DNA of 45,428 nucleotides from Candidatus Mcinerneyibacteriota bacterium. GTDB lineage: Bacteria; Macinerneyibacteriota; Macinerneyibacteria; Macinerneyibacteriales; DSCS01. The position numbers and the translations under genes are program-made. The notes below the pieces were generated by a model that was not told where the DNA came from, did not search any database, and saw only the letters and a program-made list of their open reading frames with translations. The stretch spans positions 1-45,428 of the forward strand of contig JAFGWL010000063.1 of NCBI GenBank assembly GCA_016937175.1. The letters run 5' to 3'. Below are positions 4,365-14,076 of this stretch, piece after piece (position 1 is the stretch's first letter; every line of letters starts with the position of its first letter).

Positions 4365-5654
4365 TCAATTATAGAAAAACCAGCGCAAATGAAAGGAGAC
4401 TTCTGGCCCCTCACCTTCTCCCCCCTCCTCTTCTGCCAGGTCCTGCCCGAAGATGTTTTCCACTGTCACGTCTACCTCGGTATTCACAAGAGCCAGTGAG
4501 AGGAAAAGATCAGTGTAGAAAGAGCCGTCCGACTCTTCCGAAGGGGTCAGGATCGTGTTCCTGAGATACCCTTTGACAGTGAGATCCCCCTGAAAAAAAG
4601 AGAATTCACTGTAAATGTAATTCCTCAGGACACTCTTCTGTTCTTTTGTAAAAAGAAGGTCCCCTTCGGCGATAAGCATGAGATGCTCCCCCGCTCTTAC
4701 CGGGATATTGTAAGCGGCTCCTGGAATAAAGGCATTGTCATAATCATAAAGGGGGTGAGCCAATCGGTCGGCATAACGCAGAAAAAGATGTCCTGCTGTC
4801 CCCGCAGACAGGCCAGTTTCATAATAATCGGACTCATAAGGGCCTAACCAGTCTTGACGGGCCCGCTTTTCCATATAGAGAGCCCCCCGTTTCAGGCTCA
4901 TGTTCACATCCAGGAGGTCGTCCCGGATAAAGGGGTTCATCCAGACATCGGTCCCGCCCACTCTTCCCTTATACTCGGCTCCTATCCTGAAAAGTTCCTC
5001 TTCGGGGATAATGGCTCCTGAACAGGAGAATCCTTTCCAGGAAAGCCCTCCTTCATACAAAGCCAGAGATGTATCATCCGTCTTTTTGATATATTCCCTT
5101 TTCCCGTATACAGTTACAGGCCCGATCTCTGTCTCCCCGCGGATCAGGCTGTAGACATACTCTTTCTCTTCTGATTCTCCGATGAGGTCATGGTCCGAGA
5201 TGAAGAAAAACAGTTTTTGGGCTCCTGCCTCATAACGGGCTAGGTAATTCTTGCCTTTCCAATAACCGTCATCCACAGACAGATGGGTATAGTAATCTCC
5301 CAAAAACGAAGCTTTTTTCTTGTTGAGGAAAAAAAAGTAGTTTTCATAGCGGCCTGATGCCTCAACACCCACAAGGCTGTTATCAATGATCCTGGATCCT
5401 GACGGAAAATAAAAATCGATACCCTCTTCTCCCGGAAGAGCCTGATAGAGGATATTGTGAAAGATCACAGGAGAGGCCTCGGCATAGACCAGTTCCAGAG
5501 GGATCCCTTCCAGCCTGTAATTATACAATCCACGGGAAAAAGCGTACATCATCGGACCGCGGCTGAAAAAGAGAGGCCGGGCAGACGAGAGGCTAACGAG
5601 ACTGAAGAGCAGCAAGAAAAGGAGCCACTGACGTCTCTGATAATTGAAATCCAT
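4365..5654 (-). CDS. Secreted protein, probable outer-membrane beta-barrel, unknown function
   Basis: 429 residues from the ATG at 5654. I chose this start because it is followed by a typical signal peptide: charged QRR, a Leu/Phe-rich core, then SLSSA-RP. The mature part is rich in alternating aromatic/polar stretches (YFFFLNKKK, LFFFISDHD, YESDYYETGL) and ends in HLRWFFYN, consistent with an outer-membrane beta-barrel of roughly a dozen or more strands. I do not recognise the family. Its first 62 bases overlap the 3' end of the PHP gene, so the signal peptide is encoded inside PHP coding sequence and translation is probably coupled. It closes the TPR-roadblock-efp-pilT operon, suggesting a surface role linked to that cluster, but this is inference only. 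Confidence 0.6.
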   Translation of the reverse strand: MDFNYQRRQWLLFLLLFSLVSLSSARPLFFSRGPMMYAFSRGLYNYRLEGIPLELVYAEASPVIFHNILYQALPGEEGIDFYFPSGSRIIDNSLVGVEASGRYENYFFFLNKKKASFLGDYYTHLSVDDGYWKGKNYLARYEAGAQKLFFFISDHDLIGESEEKEYVYSLIRGETEIGPVTVYGKREYIKKTDDTSLALYEGGLSWKGFSCSGAIIPEEELFRIGAEYKGRVGGTDVWMNPFIRDDLLDVNMSLKRGALYMEKRARQDWLGPYESDYYETGLSAGTAGHLFLRYADRLAHPLYDYDNAFIPGAAYNIPVRAGEHLMLIAEGDLLFTKEQKSVLRNYIYSEFSFFQGDLTVKGYLRNTILTPSEESDGSFYTDLFLSLALVNTEVDVTVENIFGQDLAEEEGGEGEGPEVSFHLRWFFYN

Positions 5655-6381
5655 AGGTCCCGTAGTGATAATCACTTCCTCCTGTTGCGAGCATATGATA
5701 CTTTTGAGCAAGATTCAAGTAGTACTTTGTGATCAGCGGATCATGGAACGGGTAATACGCTTCCAGGGCATCCAGCCCCCGGTCCGCCAGTTTTTTGATC
5801 AGCTCGTCTTTCTTTGTCCTCTGGGGATGGGCAAAGGAGACCAGGGCTCCGCTTTCTTTCAATAGGTTCAAACCCTCATAGACATCCAGAAGGCGGACAG
5901 GTTCGTAAAGGGGCTTCCCTTCTCCGAGAAATGAGGTGAAGGCCTCCCGCATGGTCCGGACCGCCCCATACTCTTTGAGCAGCCTGGCCATATGGTAGCG
6001 TCCCGGAGCCCGGGTACCTTTCAGAAAGGAGAGGTCCGGCTCCTCCTTGAACAGGTTCATGGCAGCTGCTTTTGAGACCATCCGTGTAAACCTGTCACGC
6101 CTCTGACAGCCGATCTCTTCCAGAGCCGACAAAAGGCGGGGAGCGGAAGGGTCAGGCTCATAGCCCAGGAGATGGACTTCACTCTGTCCGTATGTAGTGC
6201 TCAGCTCAATCCCCCTTATCCATTTGACGGAGCTTGACGTCTCCGGCAAAGGGGTAAGACAATCGTGATCTGTCAGGGCCGCCGTCTTAATACCCCGGCC
6301 GTCCAGCAGGGAATCCAACTGATCCGGAGTCAATTGTCCGTCGGAAAAAAGTGTATGAAGATGGAGGTCGGCAAAGGTCAT
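5593..6381 (-). CDS. PHP-domain metal-dependent phosphoesterase (TrpH/YciV-like)
   Basis: 262 residues. The PHP metal-site motifs are clear: HLHTLFSDG (His7, His9, Asp14), LTDHD near residue 37-41, GIELS near 57-61, AHPQRT later, and a C-terminal GGSDYH. This single-domain size and motif set match the YciV/RNase AM group, which hydrolyses nucleoside bisphosphates or short RNA 5' ends. Substrate cannot be assigned from sequence alone. The ATG is one base after the TGA of the AAA ATPase gene (TGA-A-ATG), so it is coupled. Its 3' end overlaps the next gene by 62 bases. Confidence 0.85.
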   Translation of the reverse strand: MTFADLHLHTLFSDGQLTPDQLDSLLDGRGIKTAALTDHDCLTPLPETSSSVKWIRGIELSTTYGQSEVHLLGYEPDPSAPRLLSALEEIGCQRRDRFTRMVSKAAAMNLFKEEPDLSFLKGTRAPGRYHMARLLKEYGAVRTMREAFTSFLGEGKPLYEPVRLLDVYEGLNLLKESGALVSFAHPQRTKKDELIKKLADRGLDALEAYYPFHDPLITKYYLNLAQKYHMLATGGSDYHYGTYGFQLSETSVAPFLAALQSR

Positions 6382-6382
6382 T

Positions 6383-7207
6383 TCACCGGGCGGTGGTGAT
6401 CATTCCCAGGTCCACCAGAGTGTTGTTCACAATACGGTTATTGATGACCTCACTCTTTTCAATAAACCCTTCCAAAAGGGCATTATCGGCGATGGTGTTG
6501 ATGAGCCGGGGGATCCCCCCGGAATATTTGTAGATCATCATAATAGCATCCTGGTCAAACATCATCCTCTTGGCTCCTGCCACGATAAGGCGGTGCCGGA
6601 TATACTGGATAGTCATCTTCTCATCCATGGGGCGTAATTCGATAGCTGTGGCGATGCGTTGGGTCAGAGGCATATCCATTCTCAGGTTCTCCCGGAGTTC
6701 AGGCAGTCCGAAAAAAACAAAATTGATAAGCTTTCCGGTCTTATGCTCGAAGTTCAAAAGCCCTCTGATCTCCTCGAAAAACTCTTTGTTCTGGATCATG
6801 TTGGCCTCATCTATCATCACAACAGGGATCTTCCCCTGAGCTGAGACCTCCATCAGTCTTTTGTAAAGGATATTGAGAAGCTTCATCTTGTCGGCCTGAC
6901 CGGGATCGCCACCGAACTGGATCACCAGTTTCCGGAGAAACCATAACGGTTCTACCTGGTTGTGGACCATGACGATGAGAGAGGTCTCGAAAAATTCAGT
7001 GTTGAGCATCTCCAGGATCTTACGGCTGAGCATGGTCTTTCCCGTCCCGATCCCGGCAGTGACCACAGCCAATCCCATCCTCCGTTTTACTGTATGGATG
7101 ATCTTGAAGATCGCCCTTTCATTCTGCGGATAAGTAAAAAAATACCTTTCATCAGGGATATTGAAAAAGGGGGGCTCTTTCATCCCGTAAAATGATTCGT
7201 AGCTCAC
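6383..7207 (-). CDS. ExeA/GspA/MshM-like AAA ATPase
   Basis: 274 residues from a GTG at 7207, with AGGGAG five bases upstream. The opening YESFYGMKEPPFFNIPDERYF is typical of ExeA-type ATPases. Walker A is AGIGTGKTM (51-59) and Walker B VVMIDEA (129-135); a sensor-like region with QRIATAIELRPM and a C-terminal GGIPRLINTIADN lid motif follow. Relatives are ATPases that assist assembly of type II secretion or MSHA-type pili at the cell wall, or unassigned AAA partners. No peptidoglycan-binding domain or membrane helix is present, so it is the short, cytoplasmic form. Its neighbours are the PilT-type motor and two acidic TPR proteins, which supports a pilus or envelope-machine role. Confidence 0.85.
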   Translation of the reverse strand: MSYESFYGMKEPPFFNIPDERYFFTYPQNERAIFKIIHTVKRRMGLAVVTAGIGTGKTMLSRKILEMLNTEFFETSLIVMVHNQVEPLWFLRKLVIQFGGDPGQADKMKLLNILYKRLMEVSAQGKIPVVMIDEANMIQNKEFFEEIRGLLNFEHKTGKLINFVFFGLPELRENLRMDMPLTQRIATAIELRPMDEKMTIQYIRHRLIVAGAKRMMFDQDAIMMIYKYSGGIPRLINTIADNALLEGFIEKSEVINNRIVNNTLVDLGMITTAR

Positions 7208-7219
7208 AGCGCTCCCTTG

Positions 7220-9991
7220 TTAAAAATATGAGATCTTGTCGTCATCGTCCTTCTCTTCCTCTTCCGGGTTCTCTTCTCCGGAGGGAGGTTCCAGCAATTC
7301 TCCCGGGCCGGGCATGAGCTCCTCTTCCTCCTGCAGGGTCAAAGGCTCCTGAGCCTCTTCTGATGGAGCTTCTTCCCCTTGAGTCTTATCCTTTTGCTGT
7401 ACGACTTCAGTCAGGGTCCCCTTCAATGAAGTTGTCTCCTCTTTAATCCGGTTCAGAAGGCCTTCCTGCCCTTCACGGGACAGGTTCCTGATAAAGTCCA
7501 TAGCTTCCCGGAAAGCGGGAGCCATAGTCTCTTCCTTGAAATTTTTCAGATCCCGGACAAGGAGACGTTTCTCTTCGAGGGTGATGACATCGTCCCCCTC
7601 ACCGCTCTCACGGGACTCTTCCAGTGCATCCATCCTTTTTTCAAGCGCTTCCAGCTTTTCGTCCCATCTCTCAAGGCGGCGGATCCTCTCTTCAAGAGCC
7701 TCCCATCCGTTTTTCAGCTGCTGTGTCTCCTCCCGGGATTGCAAAAGGAGGGTGATCAGTTCGGAATTATCCTTGATCAGATCTTCATTTGTAGCAACGG
7801 AGTCTTTCAACTCCTCGATCTCTGAAAGAAGATGTTCTACGGCAGCCGGCGGAGCATATGCAGGCTCCGATTCACCCTCTCCGGAGACGGATATTTCGGG
7901 GGTTTCTCCGGGAACATGCTCTTTCTCTTCTTCTTCCACCGTCACATCGGCGAAGGGACTCTCCTCATGCTCAATGGAGAGAGTCGCATCATCTCCCCAG
8001 TCAGTTCCATTGCCCGATGCCCGGGCTTCCTCTTCGTCACCGGCTTCTTCAGGGAAGAGGGAGTGGAATTTTTTGCGGATCTCATTGAAAAGTTCATCCT
8101 TCTTGAATATCTGATGGCTGCTGATCCGATTGTAATATTCAAAAGCTTCCGGATAACGTTCCCCCCGGTAATAAGCGACGACAATGTTATAGAGGACACC
8201 GTCTTTCTCTTCTTCAGTCAGGTTTTCATCTCCAAGGACTTCCAGAAACTCTTCGACAGCTTCCTGATAGTCCCCTTTTTCCACCAATGTCTGAGCTAAA
8301 AGGTTCAGGCTCTTAAAGCGGTACTGGGGCAGCAGAGAGAGCTTTCTGAATTCTCCGATGGCACTGTCATAGAGCCCCATCTCTTTATAGGCGATCCCCA
8401 TATCATAATGAGCCTGGGGATCTCCTCCCAGCTGTTCTTCAAGCCCTTTTTTAAATGTGTTGACGATCTCATCCACTGAAGGGATAAACTCTTCGCTGTC
8501 CAGGTCATTGATATTGGATAAAAGACTCTGCTGGTCTCCCAGCTTTTCACTGTATTGGGAAAAGATATCCGCCAGGGCAGTCTCAAGATTCTCTTTCTGG
8601 GGAGGCTTCTCTTTGACTTCCATGTTTCCCCCGGCACCGACTTCGACTTCAAACTCGATATTCATCTCTTCATCATCATCGAAGAAACCTTTTTTCTCCT
8701 CAACCGCAGGAGCCTCTTCCTCAGTGCTTTTGGCAGCCGCTTCTTCAGTCTCTTCGGACTCGATCTCCACGGAGATCTCGGGCTCCTCCTCTTCTTCCCC
8801 TTCTCCCAAATCCACCGATTTGAGTTTGTCTTTGAACTCTTCACCTGTGGAGACGGTCACATCTCCCAGAGAGATATCGATCTCTTCTCCCGTCTCCTCT
8901 TCTCCATAGACATGGCTCTCTACATCGGGAGATTCCACCATGGACGGAGCCTTCTCTTCTTTCGGAGATGGTTTCTCCGGGGGCGGAGCCTCTTTTTTCA
9001 TCGGAGCGGCCTTCTCCTCGCCGTGAAGGGCTGTACGGGCTTCGATATTCTCCGGATCCAGCTGAAGTACTTCCGAATAGATGACTTTGGCCCGGGCAGG
9101 GTCGCTCTCTTTCAGGTATTCGGCCATATTGAGATATTCCTGGACAAGCAGGGACGATTCTCCCTGTTTTTTGTACAATTCGATCAGCTTGATGCGGGCA
9201 CTCATCTCTCCCGGGTCCAGTTCCAGGACTTTATTGTAAAGAGCCTGGGCCCATCTCGGGTTTCCCAGCTCAAGATAGATGCCGGCCATATCCATGGCAC
9301 TCTTTTTTGCCAGGCTCCCCTGGTTCATCCGGTAGAGATAGGTAATATACTCCTCAAAGATGGTGAAGTAGGTGGGGTTGGTCAGAAGGTTGTTTTTGTT
9401 GGAGATGGCTGTGACGGTATTAAAGACATCAGCCAGGCCCTCATTATCCTTTTTGGACATGAGATAGTCAAAGACCTCCTTATACATGGCGAACATCTTG
9501 TCGATGTTCTCCACACGGAAGTAGAGTCCGGCCAGAGTCTTCCGTAATTCGATATTTTCCGGGTTGATGGAGCAGATCTTTTCAAATGCAGGGATGGCCT
9601 TGATTATCTCGCCACGATGCACAAAATGGTCCGCAAACTGATTATAATAAAACTCCGCATCTGAAAACATTCCTACTTTGACATAGAGATCGGCTAACTT
9701 AAGCTTGACATCGATCTCATCAGGTTTGAACCGAAGCATCTTTCTGTAAATTGCAATGGCATTGGGATAAAAGCCGTCTTTGATGTACTTATCCGCGACA
9801 TCGTTAAAGACTTCCAGGGCATTGTCGACCTGTTTCAGTTTGATATAGGTATCTCCGAGTGAATTGAGGATCTTGGGGTCTCTTTTATGCAGCGTTGCCA
9901 ATTTCTGATATTCTTTTACGGCCCGCTCAAGCTGCCCCTTCTGAATGAATTTTGAGACCTGTAATAGTTTTTTGTCGAGATCGGCAGCCAT
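7220..9991 (-). CDS. Large acidic TPR protein with coiled coil (923 aa)
   Basis: Cytoplasmic, no signal peptide or membrane helix. Residues about 5-325 form a superhelix of TPR units (for example AIAIYRKMLRFKP, WAQALYNKVLELDP). Residues 326-470 are a Glu/Pro-rich linker with a PPP triplet at 336-338. A second TPR block runs from about 505 to 645 and contains HYDMGIAYKEMGLYDSAIGEF. Another acidic linker leads to a predicted coiled coil at about 718-865, and the tail ends EEEEKDDDDKISYF. Such TPR proteins are scaffolds. The start is set by AGGGGTGAATA before the ATG at 9991, 9 bases after the pilT stop. Position between the PilT-type motor and an ExeA-like ATPase suggests it links the two, but no partner can be proven. 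Confidence 0.85.
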   Translation of the reverse strand: MAADLDKKLLQVSKFIQKGQLERAVKEYQKLATLHKRDPKILNSLGDTYIKLKQVDNALEVFNDVADKYIKDGFYPNAIAIYRKMLRFKPDEIDVKLKLADLYVKVGMFSDAEFYYNQFADHFVHRGEIIKAIPAFEKICSINPENIELRKTLAGLYFRVENIDKMFAMYKEVFDYLMSKKDNEGLADVFNTVTAISNKNNLLTNPTYFTIFEEYITYLYRMNQGSLAKKSAMDMAGIYLELGNPRWAQALYNKVLELDPGEMSARIKLIELYKKQGESSLLVQEYLNMAEYLKESDPARAKVIYSEVLQLDPENIEARTALHGEEKAAPMKKEAPPPEKPSPKEEKAPSMVESPDVESHVYGEEETGEEIDISLGDVTVSTGEEFKDKLKSVDLGEGEEEEEPEISVEIESEETEEAAAKSTEEEAPAVEEKKGFFDDDEEMNIEFEVEVGAGGNMEVKEKPPQKENLETALADIFSQYSEKLGDQQSLLSNINDLDSEEFIPSVDEIVNTFKKGLEEQLGGDPQAHYDMGIAYKEMGLYDSAIGEFRKLSLLPQYRFKSLNLLAQTLVEKGDYQEAVEEFLEVLGDENLTEEEKDGVLYNIVVAYYRGERYPEAFEYYNRISSHQIFKKDELFNEIRKKFHSLFPEEAGDEEEARASGNGTDWGDDATLSIEHEESPFADVTVEEEEKEHVPGETPEISVSGEGESEPAYAPPAAVEHLLSEIEELKDSVATNEDLIKDNSELITLLLQSREETQQLKNGWEALEERIRRLERWDEKLEALEKRMDALEESRESGEGDDVITLEEKRLLVRDLKNFKEETMAPAFREAMDFIRNLSREGQEGLLNRIKEETTSLKGTLTEVVQQKDKTQGEEAPSEEAQEPLTLQEEEELMPGPGELLEPPSGEENPEEEEKDDDDKISYF

Positions 9992-10000
9992 TATTCACCC

Positions 10001-11095
10001 CTACATATTCCACATATCGGACACGCTTGACGAATCGATCCCCTGGATCTTCAACTTGAAATCATCGGGATTGCTGCATCGTTTCAAAGCCTCTTCCAGG
10101 GTGATCAGTCCGCTCCTGTAGAGCTTCATTATGGATTGGTCGAAGCTTTGCATCCCGTACTGTTCCCCCTTTTCAATGGCTTCTGACACTAGAAAAGTCT
10201 GAGTCTGGTCTGTGATCAGTTCAGAGATATAGGGCGTGTTCACAAGGATCTCCACAGCCGGCACTCGCCCGAACCCTGTCGCTTTAGGGATCAGGCGCAG
10301 AGAGATAATGGCCTGGAGTGTGGAAGCCAGCTGGATTCTGATCTGATCGTGCTGATGCGGCGGATAGTGGGAAATGATCCGGTTGATCGTCTGCATGGCA
10401 TTTGTGGTATGCAGGGTGCTCATCACCAGATGTCCTGTATCGGCAGCGGTGATGGCTGTCTGAATAGTTTCCAGATCCCTCATTTCTCCGATCATGATGA
10501 CATCGGGGTCCTGCCGGAGGATACGTCTGAGCGCTTGAGAAAAGCTTTCTGTATCCGAACCGATCTCCCTTTGATTGACAATGCTCTTTTTATCGGAAAA
10601 AAGGTATTCGATGGGATCTTCCACAGTAATAATATGTTTTCGTTCCATGGAGTTGATGAAATCGATCATCCCCGCCAGAGTAGTTGATTTCCCGCTTCCG
10701 GTGGTCCCTGTCACAAGAACCATCCCCCGCGGCAGAAGGGCGATATCCTTCAGCTTGTCGGGAAGATTCAGGTCGTCGATGGAGAGAATCTGGGTAGAGA
10801 TACGCCTCAGGGCTATGGCTACGGCTCCCCGGGCAATAAAACAGTTGATACGGAAGCGTCCCATTCCCCGGATCCCCACAGAAAAATCAAGCTCATGTTC
10901 CTCTTCAAAACGGGCGAACTGATTATCGTTCATGAACTGTTTGGCGATGGCCAGCGTCTGTTCAGGGGAAAGTTTAAAATCTCCCACAGGCTGCAGGACA
11001 CCGTCCAGCCGCATCATGGGAGGGCTCCCCACCTTGAAATGAAGGTCGGAAGCCTCGTTCTCCACCATTTTCTGCAACATGTCGAAAAGCTGCAT
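10001..11095 (-). CDS. pilT: PilT-type retraction ATPase
   Basis: 364 residues, the normal PilT length. Motifs in order are: N-terminal PAS-like domain starting MQLFDMLQKMVENEASDLH, Walker A GTTGSGKST (130-138), Asp box VEDPIE (158-163), Walker B DPDVIMIGEMRD (197-207), and His box AADTGHLVMSTLHT (217-230). PilT hexamers drive type IV pilus retraction at the inner membrane. No pilin, PilB, PilC or PilQ gene is in the window, so the pilus itself must be elsewhere. PilU paralogues have the same motifs, so PilT versus PilU is not settled; the C-terminal AIRNLIRE motif of classical PilT is not obvious. The ATG shares a base with the efp stop (TAATG). Confidence 0.92.
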   Translation of the reverse strand: MQLFDMLQKMVENEASDLHFKVGSPPMMRLDGVLQPVGDFKLSPEQTLAIAKQFMNDNQFARFEEEHELDFSVGIRGMGRFRINCFIARGAVAIALRRISTQILSIDDLNLPDKLKDIALLPRGMVLVTGTTGSGKSTTLAGMIDFINSMERKHIITVEDPIEYLFSDKKSIVNQREIGSDTESFSQALRRILRQDPDVIMIGEMRDLETIQTAITAADTGHLVMSTLHTTNAMQTINRIISHYPPHQHDQIRIQLASTLQAIISLRLIPKATGFGRVPAVEILVNTPYISELITDQTQTFLVSEAIEKGEQYGMQSFDQSIMKLYRSGLITLEEALKRCSNPDDFKLKIQGIDSSSVSDMWNM

Positions 11096-11661
11096 TATTT
11101 GACCCTTTCCAGATACTCCCCGGTCCTTGTGTCGATTCTGATCATCTCATCCTGATTGACAAAAAGGGGAACCTGGATGACATGACCCGTCTCCAGAACC
11201 GCTGTCTTCGTGGCCCCGGAAACCGTGTCCCCTTTGATGGCAGGCTCTGTCTCGACGATCTGGAGCTCCACAAAGTTAGGAAGGTTGATTCCCACGGGTT
11301 TGTCTCCGTACATGAGGATATAGACGATCATATCCTCTTTCAGGAACTTCTTTTCTTCTTCAAGAGAATCAGCCGAAAGGCCGAACTGCTCAAAGGTCTC
11401 CATATTCATAAAGAAGAAGTTATGTTCATCGTTATATAGGTATTGGCACTCCTTCATCTCCAAACGGACTTCGTTCAGCTTATCAGCAGATTTGAACGTC
11501 TCGGTTACCACCTTGCCTGTTTCCACTTCTTTCAGTTTCGCTCTGCAGAAGGCGTTTCCTTTCCCCGGTTTGACATGTTCCGCCTTGACAACCCAGTAAA
11601 GCTTGCCGTCCTTTTCAAGAGCCATTCCATTGCGTAAATCATTGATCCCGATAATGGCCAT
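11095..11661 (-). CDS. efp: Translation elongation factor P
   Basis: 188 residues from the ATG at 11661, chosen because CAAGGAGGAAACATG gives a strong ribosome binding site; the frame is open upstream to 11742 without one. EF-P rescues ribosomes stalled at consecutive prolines. The KOW-like N-terminal domain carries HVKPGKGNAF, with Lys34 in the position modified by beta-lysylation in E. coli. The central and C-terminal OB domains are complete. No EpmA/EpmB or EarP modification gene is in the window. The loop retains Lys rather than Arg, arguing against the EarP-rhamnose type. Placement inside an operon with pilT and TPR genes is notable; the downstream TPR gene encodes a PPP motif. Confidence 0.96.
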   Translation of the reverse strand: MAIIGINDLRNGMALEKDGKLYWVVKAEHVKPGKGNAFCRAKLKEVETGKVVTETFKSADKLNEVRLEMKECQYLYNDEHNFFFMNMETFEQFGLSADSLEEEKKFLKEDMIVYILMYGDKPVGINLPNFVELQIVETEPAIKGDTVSGATKTAVLETGHVIQVPLFVNQDEMIRIDTRTGEYLERVK

Positions 11662-11677
11662 GTTTCCTCCTTGTTTC

Positions 11678-12040
11678 CTATGTGATTTCTCTCTTGAGCT
11701 GTTCAGCCAGAAGATAAAGATGGTAGCGCGCTTTTTTGACATTGACCAGCTGCGAGCAGATCATGCTCACAAAATAGTCTTCGCTTACCATTCTGATCAG
11801 GACAACGTATCGCCCGGCAATGGTAATATCCTCAGCGAAACCTTCTACGCCGATTTGTTTGAGTGAATCCCTCTTGTGCACAATATAAGTGGCTACCTGG
11901 GCATCACCTATTTCCAGATTAGGCGGCAACACGGGATAGGTCGAATTGGCTATCCCCAAACCATCCACTCCGCAGAAGCTCACTGTAAGGGCCCCTTCAA
12001 CCTTTTTTAATGTTCCGTCGAGCATCACTTTATAATCCAT
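11678..12040 (-). CDS. Roadblock/LC7-like small protein (MglB-like fold)
   Basis: 120 residues, no signal peptide. The arrangement of a short N-terminal helix, a strand pair VSFCGVDGLGIANSTYP, a helix in the DAQVATYIV segment, strands around DITIAGRYVVLIRMV and EDYFVSMICS, and a C-terminal helix KKARYHLYLLAEQLK fits the roadblock/LC7 fold. This fold occurs in bacterial regulators of Ras-like GTPases such as MglB, which sets polarity of pili and gliding. No MglA-type GTPase is encoded nearby, so the partner is unknown. Good binding site (GAGGAGTTTGTATG). It lies 14 bases after the first TPR gene and 16 before efp. The call is by secondary-structure pattern and is moderate. Confidence 0.6.
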   Translation of the reverse strand: MDYKVMLDGTLKKVEGALTVSFCGVDGLGIANSTYPVLPPNLEIGDAQVATYIVHKRDSLKQIGVEGFAEDITIAGRYVVLIRMVSEDYFVSMICSQLVNVKKARYHLYLLAEQLKREIT

Positions 12041-12054
12041 ACAAACTCCTCAGC

Positions 12055-14022
12055 TTAAAGGTCATTGAGCCATTTACCGATATCGTCCAGGGTCTCATCG
12101 TCGGCATCGACCAGCTCATCAGCATTATCATTGTCTTTTCGGGCCTCGTCAATGGAAATCTCCCCCTCATCTGCTGCCGGGGCCGCAAGAGGCTCCTCTT
12201 TCAGGTCCAGGTCGGAAGGGGGTTCCATCTGTTCTGCAGGGGGCCGTGGAACTGACGTTTGGGGCAGAGGTGATTCTGTCATCTCCAGTTCATCCTGTCC
12301 CTGAAACCTGCTCTCCTCTGTCTCGCCGGAAGGCTCCAGGGCTCCCACATCGATCTCCTGATGGCCGGCGAACTTATCTTCATCCCCTCCCTCGAGGGTG
12401 CTCTCTGTATCCAGGTGGACCAGCGACTCTCCCGAAAAGGCCTCCCGGCTTTTGGCATCCTGAAGGGAACGGGTCTCCGCTTCCAGCTCATCCATGATAT
12501 CCTCATCAAGCCCTTCATCTGTCTCGATGCCGGCTCCTGACAGGCTTTTTTCAGCTTCAGCCATGAGGGCGTTCAGATCCTGAGGATGGCTGAGGTCTTC
12601 TTCCAGAGAGGGGTAGGAATCCTCCCGAAAGCCCTCCTCTTCATCTCCGGCAAGCCCGGCCTCCTCCCCGTCAAAGGTCGGCAACTCTTCAGCGCCCTGC
12701 GAAACATCCGGGGAGAGAAGGGGCTCCGCCTTCACTTCAGGGGGTTCAGCAGATAGCTCTTCTCCCGTCTCTTCCAGTCCTTCTTCCAGGATCTCTTCTT
12801 CCTCGTCAAGAATCTCCTCTTCTTCCTCCAGGATCTCCTCTTCCATCAGGCCGGTATCCTCCTGAGGAGGAGAAACCGGTAATTCTTCTTCTGGGGCAGA
12901 CTCCTCCTCTTCGGGGATATCCTCATCCAGGGAATTTTCGGGAATCAGGTCTTCTTCAGGAGCTTCTCCGCTATCCTGAAGGTCCATATCCAGAGCGTCG
13001 CCCTCTTTAAGAGTCGTCTCGGGGATCCCCTCTTCAGGAAGGGTTTCCTCCTCTTCTCCTGCAGGAGAGTTCTGATTCACACTCTCATAGGCGATCTGAT
13101 CGTTTGAGACGATGCTATCATAGGAGACGATATTCTGATCTATTTTGACTTCCTGTTTACTGGCAATGCCTATATTTTCTGTTCCGTCGATCTGGATCTC
13201 TTCCGATTTATGGGGAGAAACACCCCTTTCGATGGGAACGATCTCTCCCTCGCCGGCTTCGTGACTTAAATAGGAGTCGAACCTGCGGTTAATCTCTTCC
13301 CAAACAGGAATATTCATCGCTGAGGCCAGCCGATTGAAAAGAAGCTGATTGCTCTCATCAAAACCCCGTTCCAAAACGTCTCTGGCTTTACGGATCGTTT
13401 TTTCAGCCAATGTGAGAAGGGAGCCGACACTTTCGGCTGTAGCCAGAATCTCCGGTGAAGACGATGCTTCAGGCATCTCTTCTACAATCCCGGGCACCTT
13501 CATCTCCACGGGCTCTTCGACAGCCCCGCTCTTCTCTTCCTCTTCGACTCCGGCCTCCTCTTCCTCAGGGGCAAGCTCTTTCGGGGGAGCAGGGATCGTT
13601 CCGCTTTGGAGTCCCTTGATCTTTTCCACCATCTCCTGGAACTCTTCGTTCATCGGGTCGATAAAAAGAAGCCGCTCATACATCTCCAGGGCACTGCTGT
13701 ACTCCTCCATGGAGTAGTAGATCTCACCCAGCCCGATGAGGGCTACAACATTATCATGATTCTGTTCAAGAATAGCCTCAAACTCATCCTGGGCTTTGTC
13801 GATCTTCCCGTCTTTTACATAACACTTTCCCAGGACAGCTCGTCCGGCGATAAAATCAGGATCGTCTTCCAATCCCTCCTCGCAGACACTGATGGCCTCG
13901 TCCACATATCCTTTATTAAGAAGGGCATTGGCCAGGGACGCAAAGGCCCGGGGATCCCGTGCGATTATTTTGACATATTTCTTGATATCCGGATCCTGGT
14001 AGATATCTTTTTTGAAATCCAT
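12055..14022 (-). CDS. Acidic TPR protein with long Glu-rich disordered region (655 aa)
   Basis: First gene of the operon, with AAAGGAGAGCCGCCATG. Residues 1-130 carry three or so TPR units (AFASLANALLNKGYVDEAI, AVLGKCYVKDGKIDKAQDEF, ALIGLGEIYYSMEEYSSALE). After an acidic linker, residues about 195-270 hold a predicted helical segment (SLLTLAEKTIRKARDVLERG, then NIPVWEEINRRFDSYLS) of no recognised family. From about 310 to the end the protein is extremely Glu/Asp-rich and probably disordered, with heptads such as EEEILEE and EEILDEE encoded by a 21-base DNA repeat (12786-12848). The tail ends DDETLDDIGKWLNDL, which could be a short peptide docking motif. Architecture parallels the 923-residue TPR protein two genes downstream. 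Likely a scaffold; function unknown. Confidence 0.8.
   Translation of the reverse strand: MDFKKDIYQDPDIKKYVKIIARDPRAFASLANALLNKGYVDEAISVCEEGLEDDPDFIAGRAVLGKCYVKDGKIDKAQDEFEAILEQNHDNVVALIGLGEIYYSMEEYSSALEMYERLLFIDPMNEEFQEMVEKIKGLQSGTIPAPPKELAPEEEEAGVEEEEKSGAVEEPVEMKVPGIVEEMPEASSSPEILATAESVGSLLTLAEKTIRKARDVLERGFDESNQLLFNRLASAMNIPVWEEINRRFDSYLSHEAGEGEIVPIERGVSPHKSEEIQIDGTENIGIASKQEVKIDQNIVSYDSIVSNDQIAYESVNQNSPAGEEEETLPEEGIPETTLKEGDALDMDLQDSGEAPEEDLIPENSLDEDIPEEEESAPEEELPVSPPQEDTGLMEEEILEEEEEILDEEEEILEEGLEETGEELSAEPPEVKAEPLLSPDVSQGAEELPTFDGEEAGLAGDEEEGFREDSYPSLEEDLSHPQDLNALMAEAEKSLSGAGIETDEGLDEDIMDELEAETRSLQDAKSREAFSGESLVHLDTESTLEGGDEDKFAGHQEIDVGALEPSGETEESRFQGQDELEMTESPLPQTSVPRPPAEQMEPPSDLDLKEEPLAAPAADEGEISIDEARKDNDNADELVDADDETLDDIGKWLNDL
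12786..12848 (-). repeat. Three imperfect 21-base in-frame repeats
   Basis: Anchor sequences AGGATCTC (12788), AGAATCTC (12809) and AGGATCTC (12830) recur at exactly 21 bases on the plus strand, followed each time by a CTTCTTCC-like stretch. In the minus-strand gene they encode Glu/Asp-rich heptads around residues 391-412. Being a multiple of three, copy-number change would keep the frame. Confidence 0.75.
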
Positions 14023-14048
14023 GGCGGCTCTCCTTTTCTTTACTTTAT

Positions 14049-14076
14049 ACTATACCACAGTTTGCATAAGTGTCAA
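14049..14076 (-). promoter_or_regulatory. Strong sigma70-like promoter for the TPR-roadblock-efp-pilT operon
   Basis: Minus-strand TTGACA (14071-14076) is a perfect -35 box, followed 16 bases later by TATAGT (14049-14054). The -35 box is 19 bases beyond the stop codon of the glycosyltransferase gene. No promoter-like gap is seen between the eight downstream genes (largest spacing 16 bases), so this site probably drives them all. Confidence 0.7.

Follow-up and report, generated by a model that had tools for sequence, protein, structure and literature searches.

An operon of Mcinerneyibacteriota encoding MglC and SgmX homologues, and candidate partners in a probable control of type IVa pili

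How cells confine pilus activity to one pole has been worked out in detail chiefly in Myxococcus. The locus described here raises the question of which cellular machine is served by an operon that combines a PilT-type motor, a small roadblock protein, two acidic TPR proteins, and an AAA ATPase. The window, that is, the whole 45,428-nt stretch of DNA analysed, is contig C16 (JAFGWL010000063.1, positions 1–45,428) of a 1.88-Mb Candidatus Mcinerneyibacteriota genome in 71 contigs (GCA_016937175.1). A first-pass annotation of this DNA had viewed the operon as an uncharacterised pilus-polarity or envelope module. The pilus-polarity part of that view stands, and none of the outcomes named as refuting it was observed; the word uncharacterised does not, since the roadblock protein resembles MglC, the second TPR protein resembles SgmX, and most of the module is thus already characterised. 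Judged by sequence, the operon probably encodes a version of the MglA-SgmX-MglC system, which governs the place and time of type IVa pilus activity, and in Mcinerneyibacteriota this version has gained a second PilT-type ATPase. On this reading, pilus genes adjoin the MglA-MglC-SgmX core in phyla that are uncultured and branch deeply. Two candidate partners are added to this core: a TPR protein that is predicted to hold MglC, and an ATPase whose predicted docking site is a five-residue tip of SgmX.

Eight open reading frames are confirmed on the minus strand of the window, from 14022 down to 4365. In the order of transcription, the intergenic gaps are 14, 16, -1, 9, 12, 1, and -62 nt, so that the set is spaced, as first described, by gaps of 16 nt or less or by overlaps. 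Co-transcription of the eight genes is suggested by this spacing. A minus-strand promoter, TTGACA-16-TATAGT (14049–14076), lies in the 73-nt gap between a glycosyltransferase gene and the gene for the first TPR protein, TPR1. It matches at 11 of 12 positions; by chance, each strand of the window should carry about 0.05 sites as good. Its -35 hexamer TTGACA is invariant across three Mcinerneyibacteriota genomes (the source and two relatives). A weaker second promoter-like site precedes secD. The order of genes is ligA, glycosyltransferase, TPR1, mglC, efp, pilT, sgmX, exeA, php, a signal-peptide gene, secD, and secF; efp, which encodes elongation factor P, is the eighth gene that had been counted but left unnamed. 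From ligA to secDF the order is identical in a second genome of the same genus (G001) and in Candidatus Mcinerneyibacterium aminivorans (G002; contig VSIX01000010.1, L018/L077). The comparison of gene order in related genomes, proposed earlier as a check, thus gives the same order in three genomes, and conservation of this neighbourhood reaches well past close relatives.

The second TPR protein, TPR2 (923 aa; 7220–9991, minus strand), is a homologue of SgmX, as its sequence matches to both ends of that protein indicate. It consists of N-terminal TPRs, an acidic linker, a C-terminal TPR at about residues 498–628, and an acidic and otherwise charged tail that ends in the tip DKISYF-COOH. In the NCBIfam SgmX model NF052243, residues 8–201 of TPR2 align to SgmX 6–199 (E=2e-41), and the C-terminal TPR aligns, in the right order, to SgmX 867–1001 (E=6e-15). 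The best of the genome's other TPR proteins reaches 25 bits against SgmX, and the model has a match in just 1 of 14 control genomes. TPR2 scores 142 bits, far under the equivalog cut-off of 1800, and it is therefore named a homologue of SgmX rather than a proven equivalog. A search of the PDB with it returned designed TPRs only.

SgmX is an effector of MglA-GTP that activates type IVa pili (PMC7668184, PMC7519303). In M. xanthus, its last three TPRs (TPR12–14) bind MglA-GTP (PMC7668184), and SgmX localises PilB (PMC7519303). The nearest known counterparts of the system in the window are the MglA/SgmX system of Myxococcus xanthus (PMC7668184, PMC7519303) and Bd2492/MglA of Bdellovibrio (PMC3983030). 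The protein in the window resembles their SgmX in its N-terminal TPRs, unmatched middle, and C-terminal TPR. As in these systems, MglA, MglB, PilB, and PilMNOPQ are encoded in the genome, and an ATPase gene lies directly downstream of sgmX, like MXAN_5765. In Myxococcus and Bdellovibrio the SgmX gene is followed by TamAB-type genes, with the ATPase gene between them in Myxococcus (PMC3983030), whereas sgmX in the window has no adjoining TamA/TamB-like genes. The operon differs further by the addition of mglC, the PilT paralogue, TPR1, the PHP gene, and the signal-peptide gene, and the organism differs in that two MglBs flank MglA.

The first-pass annotation had noted that MglA, pilin, PilB, and PilQ were lacking. 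This holds for the window but fails for the genome, in which the search it had suggested for MglA and pil genes finds all of them. An mglB-mglA-mglB trio that encodes two different MglBs is located on contig C29 (L026:10627–12192) and is present in all three genomes of the phylum. Contig C60 carries pilB, a canonical pilT, and the beginning of a gene resembling pilC, contig C71 carries pilMNOPQ, and there are seven N-methyl pilin matches elsewhere in the genome. Other genomes examined have one MglB, and a DUF4388 protein is encoded beside the trio on C29. Apart from pilMNOPQ there is also a smaller set of genes for a PilM-like protein, a secretin, and GspE/GspF-like proteins, on C35 (L024:3397–7068; the PilM-like gene and a second secretin) and C6 (L025:5297–8261; the GspE-like ATPase).

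The roadblock/LC7 protein (120 aa; 11678–12040, minus strand) had been likened to MglB. Its fold is supported, but both sequence and structure place it nearest to MglC. In a single-sequence search of all PDB sequences, M. xanthus MglC (7ct3) is the sole match, from end to end (E=5e-6). A profile of the three sequences from the phylum matches MglC at 2.4e-8, and a further profile at 1.5e-42. An AlphaFold2 model (pLDDT 87.5) has 7ct3 as its top fold match in the PDB, followed by MglB structures. A Pfam search gave no match, and the gathering score of Robl_LC7 (PF03259) was not reached. The protein is a short roadblock/LC7 fold without the N- and C-terminal extensions of MglB. MglB itself is encoded twice elsewhere in the genome, and the assignment of the 120-aa protein as MglB is rejected. 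By sequence and fold it is a homologue of MglC; with an identity to 7ct3 of about 24% the homology is remote, and the name is given without a claim of functional equivalence.

In MglC, the FDI motif (F25, D26, I28) contacts MglB. The corresponding positions in the window protein read V, D, and L; among MglC homologues D26 is conserved in 46 of 47, and F25 is rarely retained in any. The residues of MglC that bind RomR are K104, R106, and R110 (PMC10329633). On this KRR surface, the equivalents of K104 and R106 are retained. The window protein resembles MglC of the RomR/MglC/MglB complex (PMC10329633, PMC12719032, PMC7949163) as its closest PDB sequence and fold, and in retaining D26 together with K104 and R106 of the KRR surface. 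It differs in having Tyr for R110 and Val for F25, and in that the adjoining gene encodes a TPR protein whose C-terminal helix bears a Trp. A search of the genome for the RomR-type coding pattern EKxAWExxP gave no match, which is only weak evidence that RomR is missing.

This adjoining gene encodes TPR1 (655 aa; 12055–14022, minus strand), which has TPR matches at about residues 24–140, an acidic linker (31% D+E), and a C-terminal helix motif, ...ETLDDIGKWLNDL. A TPR gene is found directly upstream of mglC in many phyla. The pattern [LIVMF]xxW[LM]xx[LIVMAF] is present in the last 40 residues of 13 of 20 TPR1 homologues, against 0.07 expected in shuffled sequences, and is missing from the other 7. 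RomR binds MglC via a helix at its C-terminus and requires W394 of that helix to do so (PMC12719032), and the LxxWLxx helix of TPR1 resembles this Trp-bearing helix. By analogy, TPR1 may hold MglC as RomR does, which we regard as a lead and not as a result. Two TPR1 homologues, each encoded beside a separate mglC, instead carry a fused C-terminal domain: that of L067 (8413–9795) bears a fused Robl_LC7 domain (Pfam 38 bits, cut-off 23), and that of L065 (10222–11487) bears a weak roadblock-like domain.

Beyond the phylum, the same genes recur together. Among 386 genomes, the MglC profile has a match in 61 and the SgmX profile in 118, and the two co-occur with an odds ratio of 11 (P ~1e-14, phylogeny ignored). 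The genes mglC and sgmX are 5 kb or less apart in 10 of the 43 genomes that have both. The recurring string, with parts missing by lineage, is pilMNOPQ, aroC, TPR1, mglC, aroQ/pepP, efp, accB, accC, sgmX, and exeA.

The last member of this string is represented in the window by a gene for an ExeA/GspA-type AAA ATPase (274 aa; 6383–7207, minus strand). It has an AAA_22 match and a full-length match to TIGR03015 of 179 bits, below the cut-off of 324.5; a PDB sequence search returned no matches. The AAA_22 ATPase is what the protein shares with ExeA/GspA, MshM, and the XrtA-associated ATPases (TIGR03015). In contrast to ExeA/GspA, it is an AAA domain alone, has no ExeB/GspB partner encoded nearby, and is linked to SgmX instead. 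A wider survey took the best 80 relatives of this protein in the GTDB collection, picked by ATPase similarity alone. The loci span Nitrospirota, Desulfuromonadia, Methylomirabilota, WOR-3, Goldbacteria, TA06, Myxococcota, and others, and sgmX lies directly upstream of the ATPase gene in 77 of them. Among the remaining three, two begin within 350 bases of a contig end, and one is a true exception. Based on these loci, we propose that the ExeA-like ATPase is dedicated to SgmX.

The SgmX proteins linked to this ATPase also share their last residues. The tip [KRN][IV][STGA][YF][LVIMF]-COOH is found in 77 of 77 (with one unread residue in one row), and reads KISYF in the window. The pattern was fixed after these 77 loci and then tested on a new sample of 40 SgmX homologues, drawn from an SgmX search so as to avoid selection by the ATPase. 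The tip is present in 20 of the 40; the ATPase (>300 bits) is encoded directly downstream in 16 of these and not downstream in 4. None of the 20 tip-less proteins has the ATPase downstream. In a whole-genome search, all 4 apparent exceptions do encode the ATPase (327–368 bits), and two of these genomes have a further copy directly upstream of sgmX. The genomes of 25 tip-less SgmX proteins (the 20 sampled and 5 more) have nothing above 256 bits. After the genome searches, the ATPase thus accompanies 20 of 20 tip-bearing and 0 of 25 tip-less proteins. This pattern points to a partner ATPase that probably holds SgmX by its C-terminal five residues. The tip rule also offers a possible role for a conserved gene that M. 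xanthus can lose without a defect in S-motility: in that species, S-motility was unaffected when mxan_5765 or mxan_5764 was inactivated (PMC7668184), so that the ATPase is not essential for twitching there.

Two further arrangements were seen at sgmX loci. In L204, L206, and L211, a tip-less sgmX is followed by a gene for a 557–649-aa protein with weak similarity to ExeA (52–66 bits), perhaps a different ATPase partner of tip-less SgmX. Since true dedicated ATPases score above 300 bits, these neighbours were not taken as the dedicated ATPase in the count. In WOR-3 loci (L078, L093, L098, L103, L105, and others), the genes are arranged in tandem as sgmX-exeA-sgmX-exeA-php, and the tandem SgmX copies differ in their tips (KITYL versus ENISFL), which suggests paired specificities.

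The association of tip and ATPase could also come about without contact between them. The locus would still be an MglA-SgmX pilus module, but the tip, the ATPase, and TPR1 would travel together by descent and neighbourhood inertia. This is indeed how efp, accBC, and aroC behave, which share the neighbourhood with no known link to polarity. In a tree of the SgmX N-terminal domain, tip and ATPase agree in 57 of 57 rows, and the best tree needs 15 state changes with zero disagreement between the two. The tree is poorly resolved, and well-supported branches force just 3 of the tip changes, a point in favour of shared descent; independence of the changes is likely rather than proven. Moreover, two genomes (G093 and G350) retain the tip on SgmX although exeA sits elsewhere in the genome, and the absence of the ATPase from the 25 genomes with tip-less SgmX is genome-wide; both points speak against inertia of neighbourhood. 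We consider co-travel unlikely. Contact of the ATPase with the tip forms part of a broader proposal to which we give about even chances, namely that a dedicated AAA ATPase reads the SgmX tip and the Trp helix of TPR1 replaces RomR as the anchor of MglC, in an ancient multi-phylum polarity machine of which Myxococcus would be one branch. In a literature search that included few subscription papers, no description was found of the SgmX tip, of the dedicated ATPase across phyla, or of the TPR1-MglC pair.

It is improbable that the operon serves another envelope machine, such as one for secretion or assembly near SecDF, with its likeness to SgmX and MglC due to shared TPR and roadblock folds: TPR proteins do match many families, the last gene encodes a signal-peptide protein and is followed by secDF, the SgmX gene has TamAB neighbours in Bdellovibrio and Myxococcus (PMC3983030), and M. 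xanthus keeps its S-motility without the ATPase gene (PMC7668184), but the SgmX match takes in both ends in the right order and has no equal in the genome, MglC is the sole PDB match of the roadblock protein, mglC-like genes adjoin pilMNOPQ in many genomes, and MglA is present in 14 of 14 genomes checked.

For an MglA-SgmX-MglC system, the following mechanism of binding and action may be inferred from homology, neighbourhood, and co-occurrence. By analogy with Myxococcus, MglA-GTP would bind the C-terminal TPR of SgmX and free SgmX to sit at a pole, where SgmX would recruit the extension ATPase PilB for the pilus machine. TPR1 would bind MglC through its Trp-bearing C-terminal helix, much as RomR does in Myxococcus, and MglC would tie the GAP MglB to the TPR1 scaffold, thus setting polarity. 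The ExeA-like ATPase would dock on the five-residue C-terminal tip of SgmX and would remodel or load some part of the pilus machinery. A second, retraction-side ATPase, expressed in step with SgmX, may be supplied by the PilT paralogue.

This paralogue, the second PilT of the genome (364 aa; 10001–11095, minus strand), had been described as a retraction-type ATPase, and its membership in the PilT/PilU family is supported by TIGR01420 (467 bits, above the cut-off of 319) and by PDB PilT matches. It has the P-loop and the GEMRD box of this family and is 47% identical to the PilT encoded on C60. Unlike PilT proper, it lacks AIRNLIRE: the position reads YISELITD, whereas the C60 protein has AIRNLIRE. 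It also differs in sitting in a polarity operon, while the canonical PilT gene adjoins pilB on C60; as the sole retraction motor it is rejected for that reason. Among the best 80 loci of ATPase relatives, a PilT gene is found in this neighbourhood only in Mcinerneyibacterium's own, which marks it, on this survey, as a lineage-specific addition and not as part of the core.

Elongation factor P (188 aa; 11095–11661, minus strand; TIGR00038, 254.8 bits, above cut-off) is probably a fellow traveller of the efp-accBC neighbourhood: efp adjoins mglC/accBC in other genomes, and across many phyla both efp and accBC turn up again next to mglC and sgmX. It was rejected as a polarity component, since it trails accBC and mglC in many phyla with no sign of a link. 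The signal-peptide protein (429 aa; 4365–5654, minus strand) is found in the phylum only, with 24% identity to its Mcinerneyibacterium counterpart. It had been taken for an outer-membrane barrel, which is unproven; the protein has no family match, and its structure model (pLDDT 34) is too poor to decide on a beta-barrel. The PHP-family phosphoesterase (262 aa; 5593–6381, minus strand) has sub-threshold matches to PHP and to 3',5'-nucleoside bisphosphate phosphatase. Its gene trails sgmX-exeA in 14 of the best 80 loci, mostly of WOR-3, as it does in the window, and is probably carried along in the operon. A PHP-domain frame is also divergent to mglB (L001:1556–2698; G000:C29), so that a PHP reading frame adjoins each of the two polarity loci in this genome.
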